64,000 nt of DNA from Lachnospiraceae bacterium (GTDB taxonomy: Bacteria > Bacillota > Clostridia > Lachnospirales > Lachnospiraceae), in contig JAAUZX010000026.1 in assembly GCA_014804365.1 (NCBI GenBank), forward strand, positions 41,730 to 105,729, read 5' to 3'. Under the pieces are notes generated by a model. That model searched no databases. It had not been told where the DNA came from and saw nothing but the letters and a program-made list of their open reading frames with translations. A program made the position numbers and the translations under genes. Shown here one piece after another: positions 6,355 through 53,325 of this stretch. The first letter of the stretch is position 1; every line of letters starts with the position of its first letter.

Positions 6355-6368
6355 GAGTGTGGTATAAT
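6340..6368 (+). promoter_or_regulatory. Candidate promoter reading into hairpin element A and the GNAT gene
   Basis: GTGACA, then 17 bases, then a perfect TATAAT (6363-6368) overlaps the end of the membrane-protein gene. A transcript started about seven bases downstream would begin just before hairpin element A (6380-6591), so the element would be made as RNA, either alone or as the leader of the GNAT gene at 6616. Confidence 0.6.
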
Positions 6369-6379
6369 ATTCACGCTTT

Positions 6380-6591
6380 ATCTAAGCCGTTCGCGCAGAT
6401 GGAAGCTAATATCTACGGAGCCGCGCTCTCGCTCCGTAAAAAGCATAGCAGACGCTAAACTCGTGAGTTGCTTTGCAACTCTTAACCTCGTTAAGCGCTG
6501 ACCAAAGTTAATTTCGAAGAAATTTACTTTTTTTATGGGGCTCCTTAAGAAATTAGCTTCCATCTGCGCTAGGTATTGGATTATGACGGAA
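6380..6591. repeat. Long hairpin element, copy A
   Basis: The outer arms 6393-6422 (GCGCAGATGGAAGCTAAT...) and 6537-6569 (...ATTAGCTTCCATCTGCGC) pair almost perfectly over about 30 bp. Weaker pairing extends outwards (ATCTAAGCC with GGTATTGGAT). The interior holds a conserved core: GCGCTCTCGCTC, a small hairpin GAGTTGC-TT-TGCAACTC, and the flanks CGCTAAACTCG / CCTCGTTAAGCG. This copy has one extra stem (AATTTC-GAA-GAAATT). The 61-aa ORF on the minus strand is a shadow. Copies B and C lie at 51515 and 51711. Confidence 0.85.
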
Positions 6592-6615
6592 CGGTGACAA
6601 ATAGGGAATTATATT

Positions 6616-13737: not shown

Positions 13738-16700
13738 ATGAAAAAATCAAAAAGAAGATTACTAACGGGATTATTATGTATCGCATTGCTTGGAGCAGAC
13801 ATTATGTCGTCAGGGATTCAAGTGTTTGCGGCAAACCCTGCAATAGAGCTGGAGGCGGAGTATGAAGAAAGTAGTGAAGATTCAAATGAAAATGATATTG
13901 TAGATGATGATTCTACGGATAAATCTGACAGTAATGTCATAGAGGCAGAAGAAGAGGATGAATCCGAAGACGAGCAGGAAAAAGAAAATTCACAAGAACA
14001 GGACACAGATGAAGATAATGTGGATAGAATAAACGAGGATGAAAGCAAGGATTCGGCTGATGAAGCGGAAAGTGGAAGCACCGATGAAGACAAAATAGTG
14101 GAGAACATTGGGGCTGACGGAGTAGCTTCTGAAAGCGTGGTAGAGATACTTGCGCGGATTTCTTCGGAGGATGATCTTGAAAGAGGAGTTGTTGATGAGG
14201 ACTATGGGCATATTGCGTGGGTTATCGATGTTAATGGGAAACTCAAGGTTGAGGGAACTGGGGATTATTGTAATCCCGATCCTGCATCTTCCAGCCTTCC
14301 TCCGTGGTATTCACCTAGGTATTGTATTTTATCTGCGGAAATTAATGTGAAGGGTATGACAAATTCTTCTTATATGTTTACGCAATGTGAAAGATTGAAG
14401 AGCGTAGATTTACGTGGTTTGGATACGACAAATGTGACGGATATGTCAAGGATGTTTTTTAAGTGTGAGAGTCTCACAAACTTGGATTTAAGGAACTTTA
14501 ATACAAGAAATGTGATAAATATGTATAACATGTTTTTTGGATGCGATAGTCTTACGAGTATAAACGTAAGCAGTTTTAATATCGAAAATGTAGTAGATAT
14601 GGGAGGTATGTTTGAAGGGTGTGAGAGCCTGACAAGTTTGGACATAAGTAGTTTTAGCATAGCGAATGCAACAGATATTAATATGGGAAGGATGTTTGAG
14701 GGCTGCAGCAGCCTGACGACCTTAGATTTAAGCAGCCTTGATACGGCAAACGCAACAGATATGGGATATATGTTTGAGGGCTGCAGTAGTCTTACCAGAT
14801 TAGATGTAAGCGGCTTTGATACGGTAAATGTAAAAAATATGACAGGTATGTTTAGTAATTGTACTAATTTAGCCAGCTTGAATTTAAGTGACTTTAATAC
14901 AGTGAACGTAACAGATATGGGATATATGTTTGACGGGTGTAGCAGTCTGACCAACTTGGATTTAAGTAACTTTGATACGGCAAACGTAACAGATATGGGA
15001 TATATGTTTCACAATTGTAGCAGTCTGGTCGGCTTGGATATAAGTAGTTTTGATACAGCGAATGTAACAACTATGAGAGATATGTTTAGTTGGTGTGGGA
15101 ATTTAATTGGTTTGGATGTAAAAAACTTTGAAACAGTGAATGTAGAAAGTATGTTCTATATGTTCGCTGGGTGTGAGAATCTGACACACTTAGACGTAAG
15201 TAACTTTATAACCACCAATGTCAAAAATTTTGATAGTATGTTTGCTGGTTGTAAGAAGTTAACAAAACTTGATTTGAGAACTTTTGATATGCTTGATATC
15301 GATGCGGGTGGTTCATTTTATATGCTTGATGGGTGTTATGGGCTTAATGAAATATATACACCGATTATTGGATCAGATCGTAGAATATCTCTTCCAAAAG
15401 AAACGGATTCAGATGTTTGGTATATGCATGATGGAACAAAAATCGATTATATATCTGACCTTTCGGAAAGTGTTCACATCATGAAAAATGAAATTCCCGG
15501 GAAATATGGTATTACGTTTGATCCGCAGGGAGGAAAAATAAATTATAATGAACAGACCGGTCTATCGACTCTTATTTTAAGTACCGGAGCAGAGGATAAA
15601 ATAAAAAAATTGCCTGATGGAGTAAAGGACGATTATTTATTTGTTGGCTGGTACACAGCTGTGGAAGGGGGGACTCGCGTCACTGAGGATTATATTTTTA
15701 CTGAGAATACAACTCTTTTTGCGCGTTATGAGGAAAAGCCACTTACGGCAGAGCAAAGCGCAATAAAACCAAAGAGTGTTACATATAAGTATGCTTATGA
15801 GAAAATAGACGTTCTTAAGAAGGCTCATAGTATTGAATCTGATCATGAACCTTTTACTTTGGTATGCACATCGGTAGTTCAGACCAAGGTGCGTAATTAT
15901 ATTTTGTACTATAATGAAGAAGTAATCGCTGAAAGTGCCAATGGTGCATTTATAGATATTGATCCGTCAAAATATGATACCGGAGGTGTCTTTTATCTTG
16001 AGACCGTAGGTGCAGATAATGGAAAAACTGCAGAGCGTGTTAAAGTAAAGCTATTATTGCAAATAAAGAACAAAAATATTGCAGTTCCAAGCTCTATTAG
16101 TTTATTTGGGAGTGGTTTTTCTGTCACCTTGGATGAGGACGTGCCTATTGTAGGCGGTCAGAAGATTAGTCTGGCTTTCCCGGATATCCCTTTTAGTTGT
16201 GTGGTCGAAGATAATAAGATTAAATTGGGATTAAATTTAAAGGAGAAGACGTTATATAGTGCTGATTCGTATAATGGAGAGACGACATCAACACCGCCCA
16301 AATCTTTATCACAACAGGTGGAGGAGTGGAAAAAAGACTTAAGAAAAAGTCGTGATATCAAAAAAGATGTGAAGGGCTATCTCGAAAAAGACGATTTGGA
16401 TGCAGATATTCCCGGCATGGAAAAGAAATGCAAATTGACTGTATTTGGATATTTGGAAAGCGAATTTTATCGTTCTTATGCTACGGGTGCACACGAATTT
16501 AAGACTGTGTCCGGAGAAATTGTAGTTGCGATTTCCGGATCACGGACGACGCAGAAGCAGAGTGCAATACCTATTGGATTTTTAACGATTCCTGTTACAT
16601 TTAATTGTTCTTATACTGGAAATGGAACGCTGACCGGTAAGCTTAAGTGGGATTTTACCAGTGCCTCGTTTTTTCCATTAGACGCAGATGTTACCGGATC

Positions 16701-19700
16701 GGTAAGCGTTGCGGTCGAACCCTATGGCGGAGTAGGCGTTGGCAAGTGGGTCAGTGTTGGTCTTTATGGGAAAGCCGAAATCGGAACAAATTTCACCGTA
16801 GCCAGTACTGCTACTACTCGCGGGCTTGATGATGTCTATTTGTATGGAGAGGCAGGCATAAAAGCATATTTTGCCAAAAAAGAAGGAAAAGTGAGCCTCA
16901 TATCAATGGCAACGCTTGAGAAAAAATGGCCGACATATTTTGATAATAAAAATCATTTGCTCCTATGGTCCCGAAAGCAGGATTCGCTGATGAATAAGGT
17001 GGATTCATCAGACGTATCAAGAAGTGCGCCCGGCATGGAATTAATGGATATCCAATTTGCAATGAGCGAGGTTGAGAATTCCAGCGTTGTCAGAGGTTTT
17101 GTGGATTTAGGGAAATATATTGATAATGCTTATGCGGGTGCCGAACCTCAGATTGCGTCATCTGATGCGGCGACAATTCTCGTCTATATTGATTATGACA
17201 CATCGCGGGCGGAGGCTAATCAGACCGTAGTGAAATACGCACTGATAGCTGATGATGGAACCATATCAACCCCTGTGATTATGTTTGATGACGGGACGGC
17301 GGATACGAACCCGGTACTTTATTCTACCGGCAATGACATATATTGTGCATATCTGAATTCAGATAAGGTATATGATGATAATGATGATCCAGATATTGAT
17401 GCTTACGTCGGCACGTTTGGTGTGTCTGTAAGCAAATACGACAGTGAAAAGGGAGCTTTCATTGATCTGGGCAGAGTCAATAAGAATCACTGTTATTGCT
17501 ATGCGCCGCAGTTGACAGAAACGGAAGAGGGTATAAAGTTGGTTTGGGCGGAAAATATGGATAATGATATTTTTGGTCTGACTGGTCATAATACAATTTA
17601 TTCATCTGTATATTCCGGTGGTGAATGGAGTGTTCCGGACAATGTGGCAGAAAATGTGAACAGCATTACTTCATTAGCGGTTTCTCCGACAGGGTTCGTT
17701 GCATGGGCTGTAGATGAGGATAATGACCTGACTACCGACATACAGAGTATTTATGTCGATAATGTGTTACAGGCGCATGATTCTGCTTCTTACTTGACAT
17801 GGACCAACCTTCCGGGAGTTATGGGAACCGTGCTTGCGTGTAATATAAATGGTGGTTTGGCATACATAGACGGATCATCTTTCGTGGAATATTTTGAAGA
17901 AGGCATCATGGACAGCAGCAGCCCGTTTGTTGTTTATAATGGAAGCATTTATTTCCTGAAAACATCTGGGGGCCAGCGTAATGTCTTGGCGGCATTTTCC
18001 GATAACAACAACGAAACGGGAATAGGACAGCTTACAATAACTGATGATTATGTAGATGCATTTTCACTTAGTAATGGCAAGCTCGCAGCGCTTATAACGA
18101 AGGTCTCTGCGAACGAAGAAGATGGTAACATGTCTACTTCATCTTCCATCTATATTTATGATGACGAGCGATATGATCTGGTTCTGGATGAGGCGAACTA
18201 TGATCTTGATTTTGCAATGCCGGGAAAGAGAATGCCTATAAATCTGGCGGTGTCTAACGCTGGCACTAAGACGATAAGTTCATTCAATGTCACCTTGGAA
18301 TCCGGAGAGTCTCAGGAGGTAGACTGCATCTTGGCACCGGGTGAGAGTAAAACACTTACGGTATACATGACTGCTCCGGATAGTTTTGCAAAAGATGTTA
18401 TCATTAAGGTTTCTGAAACTGATGGTGTGGATTCAGATGAAAGTAATAATGAGCAGATATTGAAATTGAGTCGTACGGAGCTATCTGTGGTTACTAAATT
18501 TCTTATTGAGAATGATGCGAGATATCTGGAAGCGACAGTTACCAATGACAGCTATATTGATGCATCCATGACACTTACTGCATATGATTGTGATGATAAT
18601 GAAATCAACAGTGTAAGTGAAGATGTCGAGGCTAAGTCTGCTAAAATATATACGATTGATATTTCTTCTTATATACCGGAGGATGATACGGATTCGTTTG
18701 TATATGTTACGGTTCGGACGGATCAGGAAGAATATTATGAAAGCAATAATACGGATTCTGCCGGCATATGGAATATGGATCCGGGTGAAATTACTGTAAC
18801 CGGATCGGATACAGAGAACAGCAGCGATGTAGGAGGATATACAGATGGTGTATTGTGGATCCTTGACGGTGATGGAAATGCTGTGATCGGTATTCGCTCA
18901 GAAGAGGATAATACAAATACTGAACTGACAGAAAGTGTCTGGACAGATACTTCGGCTGAAAGAGTAACTAACATTATCGTAGAAGAGCTTGTAACTTCAA
19001 TAGGTGAAAATGCATTCAGTAATTGTAATAATCTCGAGAATATCACAGTACTGAATGATGAATGCCGTTTGGCTGCCGGTGCGATTCCTTCCGGGACAAC
19101 CGTATATGGAAATTATGGCTCAACAGCATATGAGTATGCAGTCGATAACGGATTGAAATTTGAAGCATTGGATGAACTTACACATGATCATAGATGGGAT
19201 GATGGAAGTATCACAGTTGAGCCGACTTATGAAGCGGACGGAATAGAAGTATATACTTGTGTATATTGTGGAATTACATGTGAAAAAACACTTCCAATGT
19301 TGGGAAGTGCTAATGAGACAGTATATTATCTGGTGACATTCGACAGTTGTAACGGGGATATAGGAATCATATCAAAAAATATAGTATATGAAGGAATCTG
19401 TGGAGAATTACCGGTTCCAACAAAAAAAGGATATGAGTTTGGTGGATGGTATACTGAAGAAGGGGGAAACGGAGAATTATTTACTAAAGATACGGTTGTC
19501 ACTGACAATATAACAGTATATGCATATTGGTATTATCAGGGAATGGCTGTTGAAGGTGTTGAATCTGATTATATATATACCGGGGCACAGATAAAGCCGG
19601 TGGCAACAGTATATGATGGTGCGAATCTCCTCGCTAACAAGAAGGACTATACCGTAACATATAAGAACAACACCAAGGTCTACACTCTTACTGAGGCTGA

Positions 19701-21693
19701 CGAAGGTTTTGATGCGGCTAAGGCGCCGACTGTAATTGTTACCGGAAAAGGAAATTATAAGGATAAAGAGAAAGTTTATTTTACTATCAGCCCGAAGAAT
19801 ATTACAGATGAAGATATTACTGTTTCGGATATAGCACCATCTTTGCCGACCAATAAGAATCAGACACCTGTACCTAAGGTAACCTGGGGCAAGAAAAAAC
19901 TGACCAACAAGACTGACTATACGGTTACCTACTATTCTGACGAGATGTGTACACAGACGGTAATACCCAGGGATCCGGGGACGTACTATGTGAAAGTATC
20001 GGGAAAGGGCAATTACACCGGAGAAAGAGTTTTGACGTTTGTAATTGCCGAAAGTACACAGAAGCTTGTCAGCAAGTTATCTGTAGGAAAAATAAAAGAT
20101 AAGCCATATACAGGTTTACCAATAGAACTTGCCTCCACGGAACTTGTTGTTATGGATGGAAAAAATGTGTTGACGGCAGGGAAAGATTATATAGTCACAT
20201 ATCAGGATAACCATACTGATATAGGAACGGTCACTTTGACCATTACAGGTGTTGGGGAGATCTATGTGGGTACGAAGACTGTCACTTTCAAAATTACCGG
20301 AGCAACACTTGGCAAAGCTTCTATGACAGGGTTTAAGGCATCCTTATCTTATGCATATGGAAGCACGGTAAACCAGTCGGTATCATTTACGTATGATGGT
20401 GTAATGCTAAGCGGTATTTCTGCGTCCGAATATGCAGAATTAACTGATGTCGATACGAAAAGAAGTTATGACTATACTTACGAATATACAAACAACATTA
20501 ATCCGGGAAGGGCAACTGTCGTATATACAGGTATCAACAGGTTCACCGGAACTATAAGGAAGACCTATACCATTACCGGAACAGCACTCAGCAAGGCAAA
20601 AATTGAAACGGCCATATCTTCCTTTACATATGATGGCACTGCCAAAACGCAGGATATTCTTAAGCTGACATACACAGCTTCTGGGACGGTGGAGCCTGTG
20701 GAACTTAACGGGATACTTAAGAGTGATTATGATAAGCTTGGGACAACAGAACAGCTTAAATATGATTACATTATTGATTACCAGAATAATGTAAGGGCTG
20801 GAACTGCTAAAATTATACTGACAGGTGTCAACGGCTATACTGGAACGGTAACGAAGACATATAAGATTGCTCCATTTGATATTTCAAAGGATGCTTCAAA
20901 TACGTTTAAAATTGCTCTGGATAGCAGTGCCGTTTATTATTCAAAAGCAGGTGCAAAGCCTGAACCGGTAGTGACCTTCAACGGAGAAGTACTTAAAAAG
21001 GGAACGGACTATACGGTAAGCTGGTCAAATAATAAGGCAGTGAATGATGGAACCGGAACAAAAAAGCCGACAATAACAGTAAAAGGAAAAGGTAATTTCA
21101 AGGGTACTGATGGGACAACCACGTTTACTATCTCACAGCGACTTATTGACGACGGTAGTATTAAGGTGTCTGTTTCGGATAAGGTATATTCCACTAAGAA
21201 GAATGCATGGAAATCATCAGTTGTTGTTATTGATGCGGATGGTAAAAAACTTTCAATGGGAACAGATTATGAAAAGGCGGTGGTTTATACTTATAAGGAC
21301 AGCGGAGCGCTGGTTGCTGACAGTGACGTAGTTCCTGCTGGAACTACAATTGTTGCCACTGTTACAGGCAAAGGTAACTATATCGGAGCTCTGTCAGGGG
21401 AGTATAGAGTCGTTACGAAGGATATAGGTAAGGTCACAGCCACCGTGTATCCCAAGACTTATACGGGTAAAGAGGTAAAACTTTCCGAGAGTGATATCAT
21501 TTTTAAGTCTGGTAAAGATCTTTTGACCGGTGTGACCTATACTATTGACGAGTCAACCTATAAGAACAATATTAATAAAGGCAAGGCAACAGTCGTAATT
21601 AACGGAACAGGAGATTATGGTGGTGCCAAGAAGATCACATACACCATTGGAGCAAAAGGCTTCCTATGGTGGTGGAGGAACCTGAGCAATTAG
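13738..21693 (+). CDS. Giant secreted surface protein with DUF285/BspA repeats, InlB-type repeats, CARDB-like and Ig-like repeats
   Basis: 2651 residues. A signal peptide (1-31, ending VFA-AN) is followed by a very acidic low-complexity stretch (about 35-125). Next come about 13 tandem 25-residue DUF285 repeats of the type NVTDMGYMFEGCSSLTSLDL (about 205-545), and an InlB/Listeria-Bacteroides-type repeat (about 590-666, FVGWYTAVEGGT). A long unassigned region includes a beta-rich segment (about 880-1080). Two CARDB-like domains (about 1482-1675), a BspA-type LRR_5 unit (about 1700-1812), a THDHRW...CVYCG motif, a second InlB-type repeat (about 1862-1935) and eight Ig/MBG-like repeats (about 1945-2640) follow. 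There is no LPxTG motif or hydrophobic anchor. The protein ends in GAKGFLWWWRNLSN. Strong ribosome site AAGGAG. The gene is clearly more AT-rich than its neighbours. Likely an adhesin or surface-layer-type protein; ligand unknown. Confidence 0.92.
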   Translation: MKKSKRRLLTGLLCIALLGADIMSSGIQVFAANPAIELEAEYEESSEDSNENDIVDDDSTDKSDSNVIEAEEEDESEDEQEKENSQEQDTDEDNVDRINEDESKDSADEAESGSTDEDKIVENIGADGVASESVVEILARISSEDDLERGVVDEDYGHIAWVIDVNGKLKVEGTGDYCNPDPASSSLPPWYSPRYCILSAEINVKGMTNSSYMFTQCERLKSVDLRGLDTTNVTDMSRMFFKCESLTNLDLRNFNTRNVINMYNMFFGCDSLTSINVSSFNIENVVDMGGMFEGCESLTSLDISSFSIANATDINMGRMFEGCSSLTTLDLSSLDTANATDMGYMFEGCSSLTRLDVSGFDTVNVKNMTGMFSNCTNLASLNLSDFNTVNVTDMGYMFDGCSSLTNLDLSNFDTANVTDMGYMFHNCSSLVGLDISSFDTANVTTMRDMFSWCGNLIGLDVKNFETVNVESMFYMFAGCENLTHLDVSNFITTNVKNFDSMFAGCKKLTKLDLRTFDMLDIDAGGSFYMLDGCYGLNEIYTPIIGSDRRISLPKETDSDVWYMHDGTKIDYISDLSESVHIMKNEIPGKYGITFDPQGGKINYNEQTGLSTLILSTGAEDKIKKLPDGVKDDYLFVGWYTAVEGGTRVTEDYIFTENTTLFARYEEKPLTAEQSAIKPKSVTYKYAYEKIDVLKKAHSIESDHEPFTLVCTSVVQTKVRNYILYYNEEVIAESANGAFIDIDPSKYDTGGVFYLETVGADNGKTAERVKVKLLLQIKNKNIAVPSSISLFGSGFSVTLDEDVPIVGGQKISLAFPDIPFSCVVEDNKIKLGLNLKEKTLYSADSYNGETTSTPPKSLSQQVEEWKKDLRKSRDIKKDVKGYLEKDDLDADIPGMEKKCKLTVFGYLESEFYRSYATGAHEFKTVSGEIVVAISGSRTTQKQSAIPIGFLTIPVTFNCSYTGNGTLTGKLKWDFTSASFFPLDADVTGSVSVAVEPYGGVGVGKWVSVGLYGKAEIGTNFTVASTATTRGLDDVYLYGEAGIKAYFAKKEGKVSLISMATLEKKWPTYFDNKNHLLLWSRKQDSLMNKVDSSDVSRSAPGMELMDIQFAMSEVENSSVVRGFVDLGKYIDNAYAGAEPQIASSDAATILVYIDYDTSRAEANQTVVKYALIADDGTISTPVIMFDDGTADTNPVLYSTGNDIYCAYLNSDKVYDDNDDPDIDAYVGTFGVSVSKYDSEKGAFIDLGRVNKNHCYCYAPQLTETEEGIKLVWAENMDNDIFGLTGHNTIYSSVYSGGEWSVPDNVAENVNSITSLAVSPTGFVAWAVDEDNDLTTDIQSIYVDNVLQAHDSASYLTWTNLPGVMGTVLACNINGGLAYIDGSSFVEYFEEGIMDSSSPFVVYNGSIYFLKTSGGQRNVLAAFSDNNNETGIGQLTITDDYVDAFSLSNGKLAALITKVSANEEDGNMSTSSSIYIYDDERYDLVLDEANYDLDFAMPGKRMPINLAVSNAGTKTISSFNVTLESGESQEVDCILAPGESKTLTVYMTAPDSFAKDVIIKVSETDGVDSDESNNEQILKLSRTELSVVTKFLIENDARYLEATVTNDSYIDASMTLTAYDCDDNEINSVSEDVEAKSAKIYTIDISSYIPEDDTDSFVYVTVRTDQEEYYESNNTDSAGIWNMDPGEITVTGSDTENSSDVGGYTDGVLWILDGDGNAVIGIRSEEDNTNTELTESVWTDTSAERVTNIIVEELVTSIGENAFSNCNNLENITVLNDECRLAAGAIPSGTTVYGNYGSTAYEYAVDNGLKFEALDELTHDHRWDDGSITVEPTYEADGIEVYTCVYCGITCEKTLPMLGSANETVYYLVTFDSCNGDIGIISKNIVYEGICGELPVPTKKGYEFGGWYTEEGGNGELFTKDTVVTDNITVYAYWYYQGMAVEGVESDYIYTGAQIKPVATVYDGANLLANKKDYTVTYKNNTKVYTLTEADEGFDAAKAPTVIVTGKGNYKDKEKVYFTISPKNITDEDITVSDIAPSLPTNKNQTPVPKVTWGKKKLTNKTDYTVTYYSDEMCTQTVIPRDPGTYYVKVSGKGNYTGERVLTFVIAESTQKLVSKLSVGKIKDKPYTGLPIELASTELVVMDGKNVLTAGKDYIVTYQDNHTDIGTVTLTITGVGEIYVGTKTVTFKITGATLGKASMTGFKASLSYAYGSTVNQSVSFTYDGVMLSGISASEYAELTDVDTKRSYDYTYEYTNNINPGRATVVYTGINRFTGTIRKTYTITGTALSKAKIETAISSFTYDGTAKTQDILKLTYTASGTVEPVELNGILKSDYDKLGTTEQLKYDYIIDYQNNVRAGTAKIILTGVNGYTGTVTKTYKIAPFDISKDASNTFKIALDSSAVYYSKAGAKPEPVVTFNGEVLKKGTDYTVSWSNNKAVNDGTGTKKPTITVKGKGNFKGTDGTTTFTISQRLIDDGSIKVSVSDKVYSTKKNAWKSSVVVIDADGKKLSMGTDYEKAVVYTYKDSGALVADSDVVPAGTTIVATVTGKGNYIGALSGEYRVVTKDIGKVTATVYPKTYTGKEVKLSESDIIFKSGKDLLTGVTYTIDESTYKNNINKGKATVVINGTGDYGGAKKITYTIGAKGFLWWWRNLSN

Positions 21694-51514: not shown

Positions 51515-51691
51515 ATCTAAGCCGGACGCGCAGATGAAAGTTAATATCTACGGAGCCGCGCTTTCGCTCCGTAAAAAGCGTAGCGGACACTAAGCTCGAA
51601 AGTTGCGTTGCAACTTTATACCTCGCTAAGTGCCGACGCTTTTTAAGGGGCTCCTTAAGATATTAACTTCCCTCTGCGCTGGGTATTGGAT
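51515..51691. repeat. Long hairpin element, copy B
   Basis: Outer arms 51528-51557 (GCGCAGATGAAAGTTAAT...) and 51647-51679 (...ATTAACTTCCCTCTGCGC) are complementary. Compared with copy A, the arm pair C-G in gaagCtaat/attaGcttc becomes T-A in aaagTtaat/attaActtc, a compensatory change. The core has GCGCTTTCGCTC, the small hairpin AAGTTGC-GT-TGCAACTT (also compensatory against copy A), flanks CACTAAGCTCG / CCTCGCTAAGTG and the inner pair AAAAAGCGT / ACGCTTTTT. It lies in the 650-base gene-free gap 51411-52060. Confidence 0.85.
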
Positions 51692-51710
51692 GAGCATAGG
51701 GCATTAGATT

Positions 51711-51880
51711 AAAACGGACGCGCGGAACAGTATATATTTACCCTAAGGACGCGCTTTCGCTCGGTTCCAAACGCAGCGGTACTAAGCTCGTGAGTTGCGC
51801 TGCAACTCATAACCTCGCTAAGTGCCGGTGTTTTCCAACGGTCCTTATGGTAAATATATACTGCTCCACGCTGTATACCT
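51711..51880. repeat. Long hairpin element, copy C, with unrelated arms
   Basis: The core is shared with A and B (GCGCTTTCGCTC, TACTAAGCTCGTGAGTTGC, CCTCGCTAAGTGCC). The outer arms are a different sequence: 51720-51750 (GCGCGGAACAGTATATATTT...) pairs with 51841-51871 (...AAATATATACTGCTCCACGC), with only three mismatches or G-T pairs. It follows copy B after about 20 bases in the same orientation. The rest of the gap (51881-52060) is AT-rich, with no gene and no clear promoter. Confidence 0.83.
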
Positions 51881-53214: not shown

Positions 53215-53325
53215 AACTAAGAAGAGGACAAGGCATAATTATGCGAAACTCAACTAAGAAGAGGACAAGACACAATTGAGCGAAGCGCAACCATGAAGAA
53301 GACAAGCCACAATTGAGTGAACTTA
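53215..53325 (+). repeat. Three imperfect 37-bp tandem repeats in the asnB leader
   Basis: AACTAAGAAGAGGACAAG recurs at 53215 and 53252, with a diverged unit AACCATGAAGAAGACAAG at 53289, each followed by a CA-AATT-GA-type tail. GCGAAGC, a known extra-stable mini-hairpin sequence, occurs at 53184, 53206 and 53280. Each unit contains a short open stretch ending ...HN and a stop or tail, but none has a convincing start site. The last unit abuts the GGAGAGG of the next gene. Confidence 0.7.

Follow-up and report, generated by a model that had tools for sequence, protein, structure and literature searches.

The three hairpin elements described here probably belong to a layered, palindromic, non-autonomous MITE family that occurs family-wide in the Lachnospiraceae and in which outer arms are re-wrapped, inner arms drift yet stay paired by arm-to-arm copying and core blocks pass from copy to copy. 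Mobility of the family was shown by terminal inverted repeats (TIRs) with target duplications, presence or absence of copies between congeners and insertion of one layer into another; block exchange of the core was shown at one locus. As is characteristic of MITEs, complete copies from several genera were short (~193–231 bp, within a range of 50–500 bp) with a structured non-coding core, were bounded by TIRs and target duplications (GTTACTRTTCAC with 8 bp; CAATGTCATTAAGTTAAG with 10 bp), and were multi-copy (54–68 copies) and polymorphic for presence and absence, with empty sites. Among the classes considered in a preliminary description of this DNA, the fold-back mobile element was the right one.

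The stretch analysed (64,000 nucleotides; hereafter the window) was searched with covariance model R1, which is based on an alignment of 64 different cores. Exactly three core matches were obtained in the window, all on the + strand, and were assigned to elements A, B and C with the following parts:

6361–6600 (approximately), + strand: complete element A; its outer inverted repeats are degenerate (GGTATAATATTCACG ... GACGGAACGGTGACA)
6393–6421, + strand: left inner arm of A, type 1
6422–6511, + strand: conserved core of A (R1, 52.4 bits)
6503–6533 (approximately), + strand: extra inner hairpin of A, AAGTTAATTTCGAAGAAATTTACTTT
6540–6569, + strand: right inner arm of A
51515–51691, + strand: element B, outer ends too degenerate for placing
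51528–51556, + strand: left inner arm of B, type 1
51557–51646, + strand: conserved core of B (R1, 83.5 bits)
51650–51679, + strand: right inner arm of B
51711–51880, + strand: element C, outer ends not placed
51720–51750, + strand: left inner arm of C, type 2
51750–51838, + strand: conserved core of C (R1, 70.5 bits)
51841–51871, + strand: right inner arm of C

All three previously proposed hairpins are therefore real. They lie at the places first given; the bounds of A have to be extended, its degenerate outer repeats lying beyond them. At the locus of A, congener G647 has the ends GGTATACTATTTACG ... GTAACAGTAACC; at the site of the extra hairpin of A, other copies have TTTAAATCCGAAGGATTTAAA or nothing. 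Arm complementarity was 28 of 30 (A), 27 of 30 (B) and 28 of 31 bases (C), far above a null obtained by pairing left and right flanks from different elements (median score 9, 95% point 20); the fixed core with self-pairing arms was confirmed. Folding z-scores of the three elements were -7.0, -7.1 and -7.9. As had been observed before, C has arms that pair with each other and bear no relation to the arm sequence of A and B; this arm type represents a second subfamily, to which copies L001, L010, L017, L024 and L027 belong as well.

A separates an ORF without Pfam match from a GNAT acetyltransferase. B and C share the interval between a gene for a glycosyltransferase and another ORF lacking a Pfam match, with asparagine-synthase genes in the region. 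Further features of the window are a T-box leader at 564–813 on the - strand (RF00230, 117.8 bits; the sole Rfam match in the window), a 37-base unit (AACTAAGAAGAGGACAAGACACAATTAAGCGAAACGC) present three times in tandem at 53215–53321, with 84% matches and a short way behind the ORF after C, and an ORF of 2651 aa at 13738–21693, which has a 78-base (26-codon) tandem repeat at 14681–15207 and looks like a large repeat protein.

R1 matched 133 of 299 sampled Lachnospiraceae genomes (~44%), with rough E-values and with several of the genomes being fragmented MAGs. Among 291 genomes sampled at class level (Clostridia), matches were found only within the Lachnospiraceae and in none of the other families. 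By the same model, three congeners carry 54 (G000, the genome of the window), 68 (G651) and 66 copies (G027), so that the genome of the window has far more copies than the three first noticed. A strict core pattern had recovered 10 copies in G000, 21 in G027 and a single one in each of two further congeners; the resulting picture of a rare, patchy repeat was an effect of the overly strict pattern and was corrected with the covariance model. With a looser pattern, at least 118 stretches were matched in named genomes, mostly of Lachnospiraceae, and carriers among the matches listed are Clostridium symbiosum, Butyrivibrio, Robinsoniella, Acetatifactor and MAGs. One record titled Bacteroides sp. 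MAG (L155, JAMPBO010000004.1) carries a copy and is probably mislabelled or a contaminated bin. The element had no match in Rfam 15 at gathering or permissive thresholds, in line with the earlier remark that no RNA family of this layout was known to its author. In the open-licence literature, no description of the family and nothing relevant on Lachnospiraceae MITEs was found.

Exact 8-bp target duplications were detected at L049, L084, L088, L091, L131, L151, L160 and L184; exact duplications of this length accompanying GTTACTRTTCAC ends were AACAGCTC, ACATAAAA, CATTTTTT, TAACAATT, GAACTGTT, CAACGGTT, CGGGAACA and GTTTAGCC. L203 and L274 (own genome) have an 8-bp duplication with one mismatch. 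Twelve of the 25 copies with recognisable ends lay above the 95% point of a null in which flanks of different copies were paired. About 130 copies in congener G023 carry the second layer CAATGTCATTAAGTTAAG with 10-bp duplications, which include the exact duplications GTTCAGGTGC, GTTCACAGGT, GGATTAAAGT and CCCATATGGC. CAATGTCATTAAGTTAA occurs 263 times in this genome (control, 2), mostly in pairs bounding hairpin elements of 158 or 189 bp.

Orthologous flanks were compared, as the preliminary description had proposed, and both filled and empty sites were found among congeners. In joined-flank searches, the empty site of L273 was recovered from G652, G647 and G668 (filled: G000, G649) and that of L277 from G651, G652 and G649 (filled: G000, G027). 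B and C have no recognisable target duplication or TIRs, the TIRs of A are degenerate, and the flanks of B and C were too diverged for a clean empty site to be obtained in congeners; alignments gave no decisive placement of the insertion boundaries of L006, L268 and L279. The left half of C is deleted in G027, G652 and G668, apparently at GCCGG microhomology, and B is wholly absent from G647. Individual copies are therefore dispensable.

Full insertion sequences of 1.6–1.7 kb share their ends with the G023 hairpin elements. Two of their transposases are DDE_Tnp_1 proteins above NCBI's cut-off for the IS4 family, and others are homologous to these two. Autonomous partners, i.e. IS4 elements with CAATG ends, were present in G023, G031, G651 and G652, whereas the genome of the window has no intact element of this kind and gave 0 matches to the IS4-type TIR with 2 mismatches allowed. 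The features of subgroup IS4 (definition, PMC2266710) were recognised in the TIR CAATG......WTW and 10-bp duplications of the G023 copies and in the transposase signature Y-(2)-R-(3)-E-(6)-K, and only the G023 copies combine such TIRs, ~10-bp duplications and an IS4 transposase in the same genome. The earlier proviso that the element might turn out to match a known IS end applies in part, in G023, where IS4-type inverted repeats bound it, and not to the window copies, which have no CAATG ends; complete copies elsewhere have GTTACTRTTCAC with 8-bp duplications. CAATG-ended copies would be mobilised in trans by IS4-family transposases and GTTAC-ended copies by another transposase that makes 8-bp duplications; an autonomous partner with GTTAC ends was looked for and not found.

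From the inside outwards, copies are composed of apical loop, stem, side hairpin, inner arm, internal loop (GGAC/TGG) and outer arm. The conserved core is ~75 bases long. Its apical loop frequently carries an additional hairpin (GAGTTGC...GCAACTC in the window copies, AAAA-like in most others), its stem is interrupted by an A·A mismatch (CTAAG...CTAAG) and by a bulge of two bases, and its side hairpin has the form CG[C/U]UYYC[G/A]C. In the core alignment, 92.9% of cells were paired, and covariation was strong: 218 double-change cells were counted, far above shuffled (61±10) and slid (16–30) alignments. At the B locus, congeners G652 and G649 have arms and flanks as in G000 and a different core block, that of L006; the orthologous copies L010 and L027 differ by one whole inner hairpin. 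Core blocks are thus exchanged between copies, and the core probably looks fixed in part as a contiguous cassette that is exchanged among them.

The covariation of the core favours the alternative of an incidentally mobile RNA or single-stranded DNA under selection for its structure, for which any arm sequence would do if paired, pairing being kept by compensatory mutation. We regard this alternative as possible and rather unlikely. It is supported by the inner arm, the left one being 28 or 29 bases long in 76 of 87 copies, and by the internal loops (GGAC/TGG boundary), which are conserved despite the free helix sequence. The elements are also slightly better conserved than their immediate flanks (six orthologous copies, 92–99% identical; flanks, 78–99%). 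It is opposed by the half-deletion or loss of copies in congeners, by an only slight preference for one orientation relative to adjacent genes (67 to 48), and by the mismatches. In the core, 21 G·T stood against 14 A·C mismatches; a clear +-strand RNA, read from these counts, was withdrawn since 8 of the 21 wobbles sit at one pair.

The arms of 172 copies fell into 96 families, nearly all self-complementary. Arms unique to each copy were rejected, as arms form subfamilies common to many loci. In the 91 measurable arm families, ~91% of inner-arm positions were Watson-Crick pairs, and G·T (G·U) made up merely ~1–2% of pairs on the + strand. Related inner arms showed 124 two-sided and 69 one-sided differences, with G·T accounting for 10 of the latter. 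Mismatches were counted on gap-free local arm alignments, with arm families taken as independent, although some may be related. Inner arms (5–28 bases from the core) had 78 A·C to 28 G·T mismatches (45 arm families to 9). The outer arms had the opposite polarity (40 A·C to 105 G·T), in part from conserved loop bases, which weakened the outer G·T excess as proof of RNA.

G-U was reported to take part in 78.5% of two-step changes (PMC8794818), and ordinary RNA compensatory evolution should accordingly show G·U as the commonest intermediate. The strong selection suggested in the preliminary description is not supported as selection for an RNA fold, in view of the rarity of G·U, of inner-arm mismatches that run the wrong way for the + strand, of orthologous copies half-deleted in three congeners and of a block-swapped core at one locus. 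Template switching, which is documented in bacteria (PMC8794818, PMC7202029), predicts two-sided changes without a G·U intermediate. The other suggestion made there, a copying of both arms from one template, is favoured for the inner arms, on the mismatch statistics. Template-switch hairpins (Monttinen and Loytynoja 2022, PMC8794818) likewise have multi-base paired changes and perfect stems and do without G·U intermediates; those are RNA genes, whereas here mobile-element arms with dozens of sequences are concerned.

The strand polarity of the inner-arm mismatches fits neither RNA selection nor template switching. Read from the minus strand, on which its mismatches are G·U-rich, the inner arm resembles a normal RNA helix, and together with the fixed length of the inner arm this keeps an RNA reading alive; inner and outer arms favouring opposite strands speaks against it. 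Strict inner-arm length, conserved internal loops and mismatch strand polarity are not accounted for by mobility. Conceivably, the core and its length-fixed, sequence-free helix are a functional RNA or single-stranded DNA that hitch-hikes in changing MITEs, with the inner helix constrained on one strand and the outer on the other, although we would not expect this to be the case.

Nesting of layers was directly seen. In G023, a 154-bp GTTAC-ended element with 8-bp duplications was found alone and also with a 189-bp hairpin element inserted (353 bp = 154 + 189 + 10). L203 still has the inner 10-bp duplication within the outer palindrome, and in L049, L131 and L160 the hairpin is directly and symmetrically wrapped in GTTAC ends with 8-bp duplications. 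IS4 insertions in the hairpin core occur in G651 (duplication TTACGGAGCG) and at the same site at four loci of G027, with only contig-end junctions visible; at L329, an IS4 copy lies inside a terminator-like hairpin (duplication GGGATATTGG). The nested elements and core insertions thus document insertion of palindrome into palindrome, a sufficient route to new and still complementary outer arms. Four further G023 elements (L336, L337, L339 and L340; 144–154 bp, structured) combine GTTACTATTCAC ends and exact 8-bp duplications with unrelated interiors, which are a second and third cargo for these ends.

Such insertions could also be extended to a capture-only origin, in which a mobile core inserts centrally into existing palindromes (terminators, MITEs) and all arms are former targets. 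Palindromes are indeed hit by IS4 elements and by the IS4-ended hairpin element, and TTCA(G/C) sites within the ends of other elements also served them as targets. This origin is nevertheless improbable: captured targets should vary in length, whereas inner arms are constant in length with a conserved GGAC/TGG boundary, arms are common to subfamilies over many loci, and the differences between related arms are paired and scattered.

Only 7 of 123 copies lie inside ORFs; the rest are near gene 3' ends (median distances 50 bp for copies behind + genes, 68 bp for those before the end of - genes and 114–163 bp from 5' ends). A role as transcription terminators acting in both directions or as stabilisers of mRNA 3' ends, for which the elements would have been retained after spreading by transposition, fits this placement but is highly improbable, as the core has no conserved U-tract, copies are freely lost, and insertion into terminator hairpins or promoter avoidance would equally lead to this placement.

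For the layered MITE family, the following course is proposed. A hairpin core of ~75 bases would be enclosed by an inner arm of ~28–29 bases with almost free sequence and then by one or two TIR layers. Outer arms would be swapped upon capture of the hairpin by another palindromic element. That inner arms drift and still pair would be due mainly to replication events in which one arm serves as the template for the other (template switching, quasipalindrome correction); selection on the fold may or may not contribute in addition.

Bacterial MITEs and palindromic repeats such as RUP, NEMIS/Correia, ERIC/RU-1, YPAL/RU-2 and QMITE2 are likewise short, non-coding and intergenic, with inverted-repeat ends, target duplications, a long predicted hairpin and dozens of copies, and YPAL inserts at or beside dyad symmetry (PMC2229807, PMC10969869). 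REP/BIME sequences, as targets of ISPpu9, ISPsy8 and other insertion sequences, are similar in that a dispersed palindrome receives an insertion sequence at one fixed position (PMC1525189). REPs are 20–40 bp long, whereas the present element has 160–230 bp and its own target duplications; compared with REP/REPIN, for which conserved terminal palindromes and a transposase of Y1 type are characteristic, its conserved part is central, its ends vary, and the associated transposases are of the DDE type. In contrast to RUP and the other families named with it, the centre is conserved here and the arms vary, at least two end layers are nested, and a whole bacterial family is covered. We know of no MITE family with a conserved centre and varying ends.

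A family that is abundant in a major family of gut bacteria is missing from Rfam. Since a mobile DNA repeat can show very strong covariation, caution is needed when RNAs are discovered from covariation alone. Dozens of unrelated self-complementary arms around one core provide an unusually large natural experiment on compensatory selection versus arm-to-arm copying. If the core does hitch-hike as a functional molecule, it would be a selfish or regulatory structure of the entire Lachnospiraceae family.
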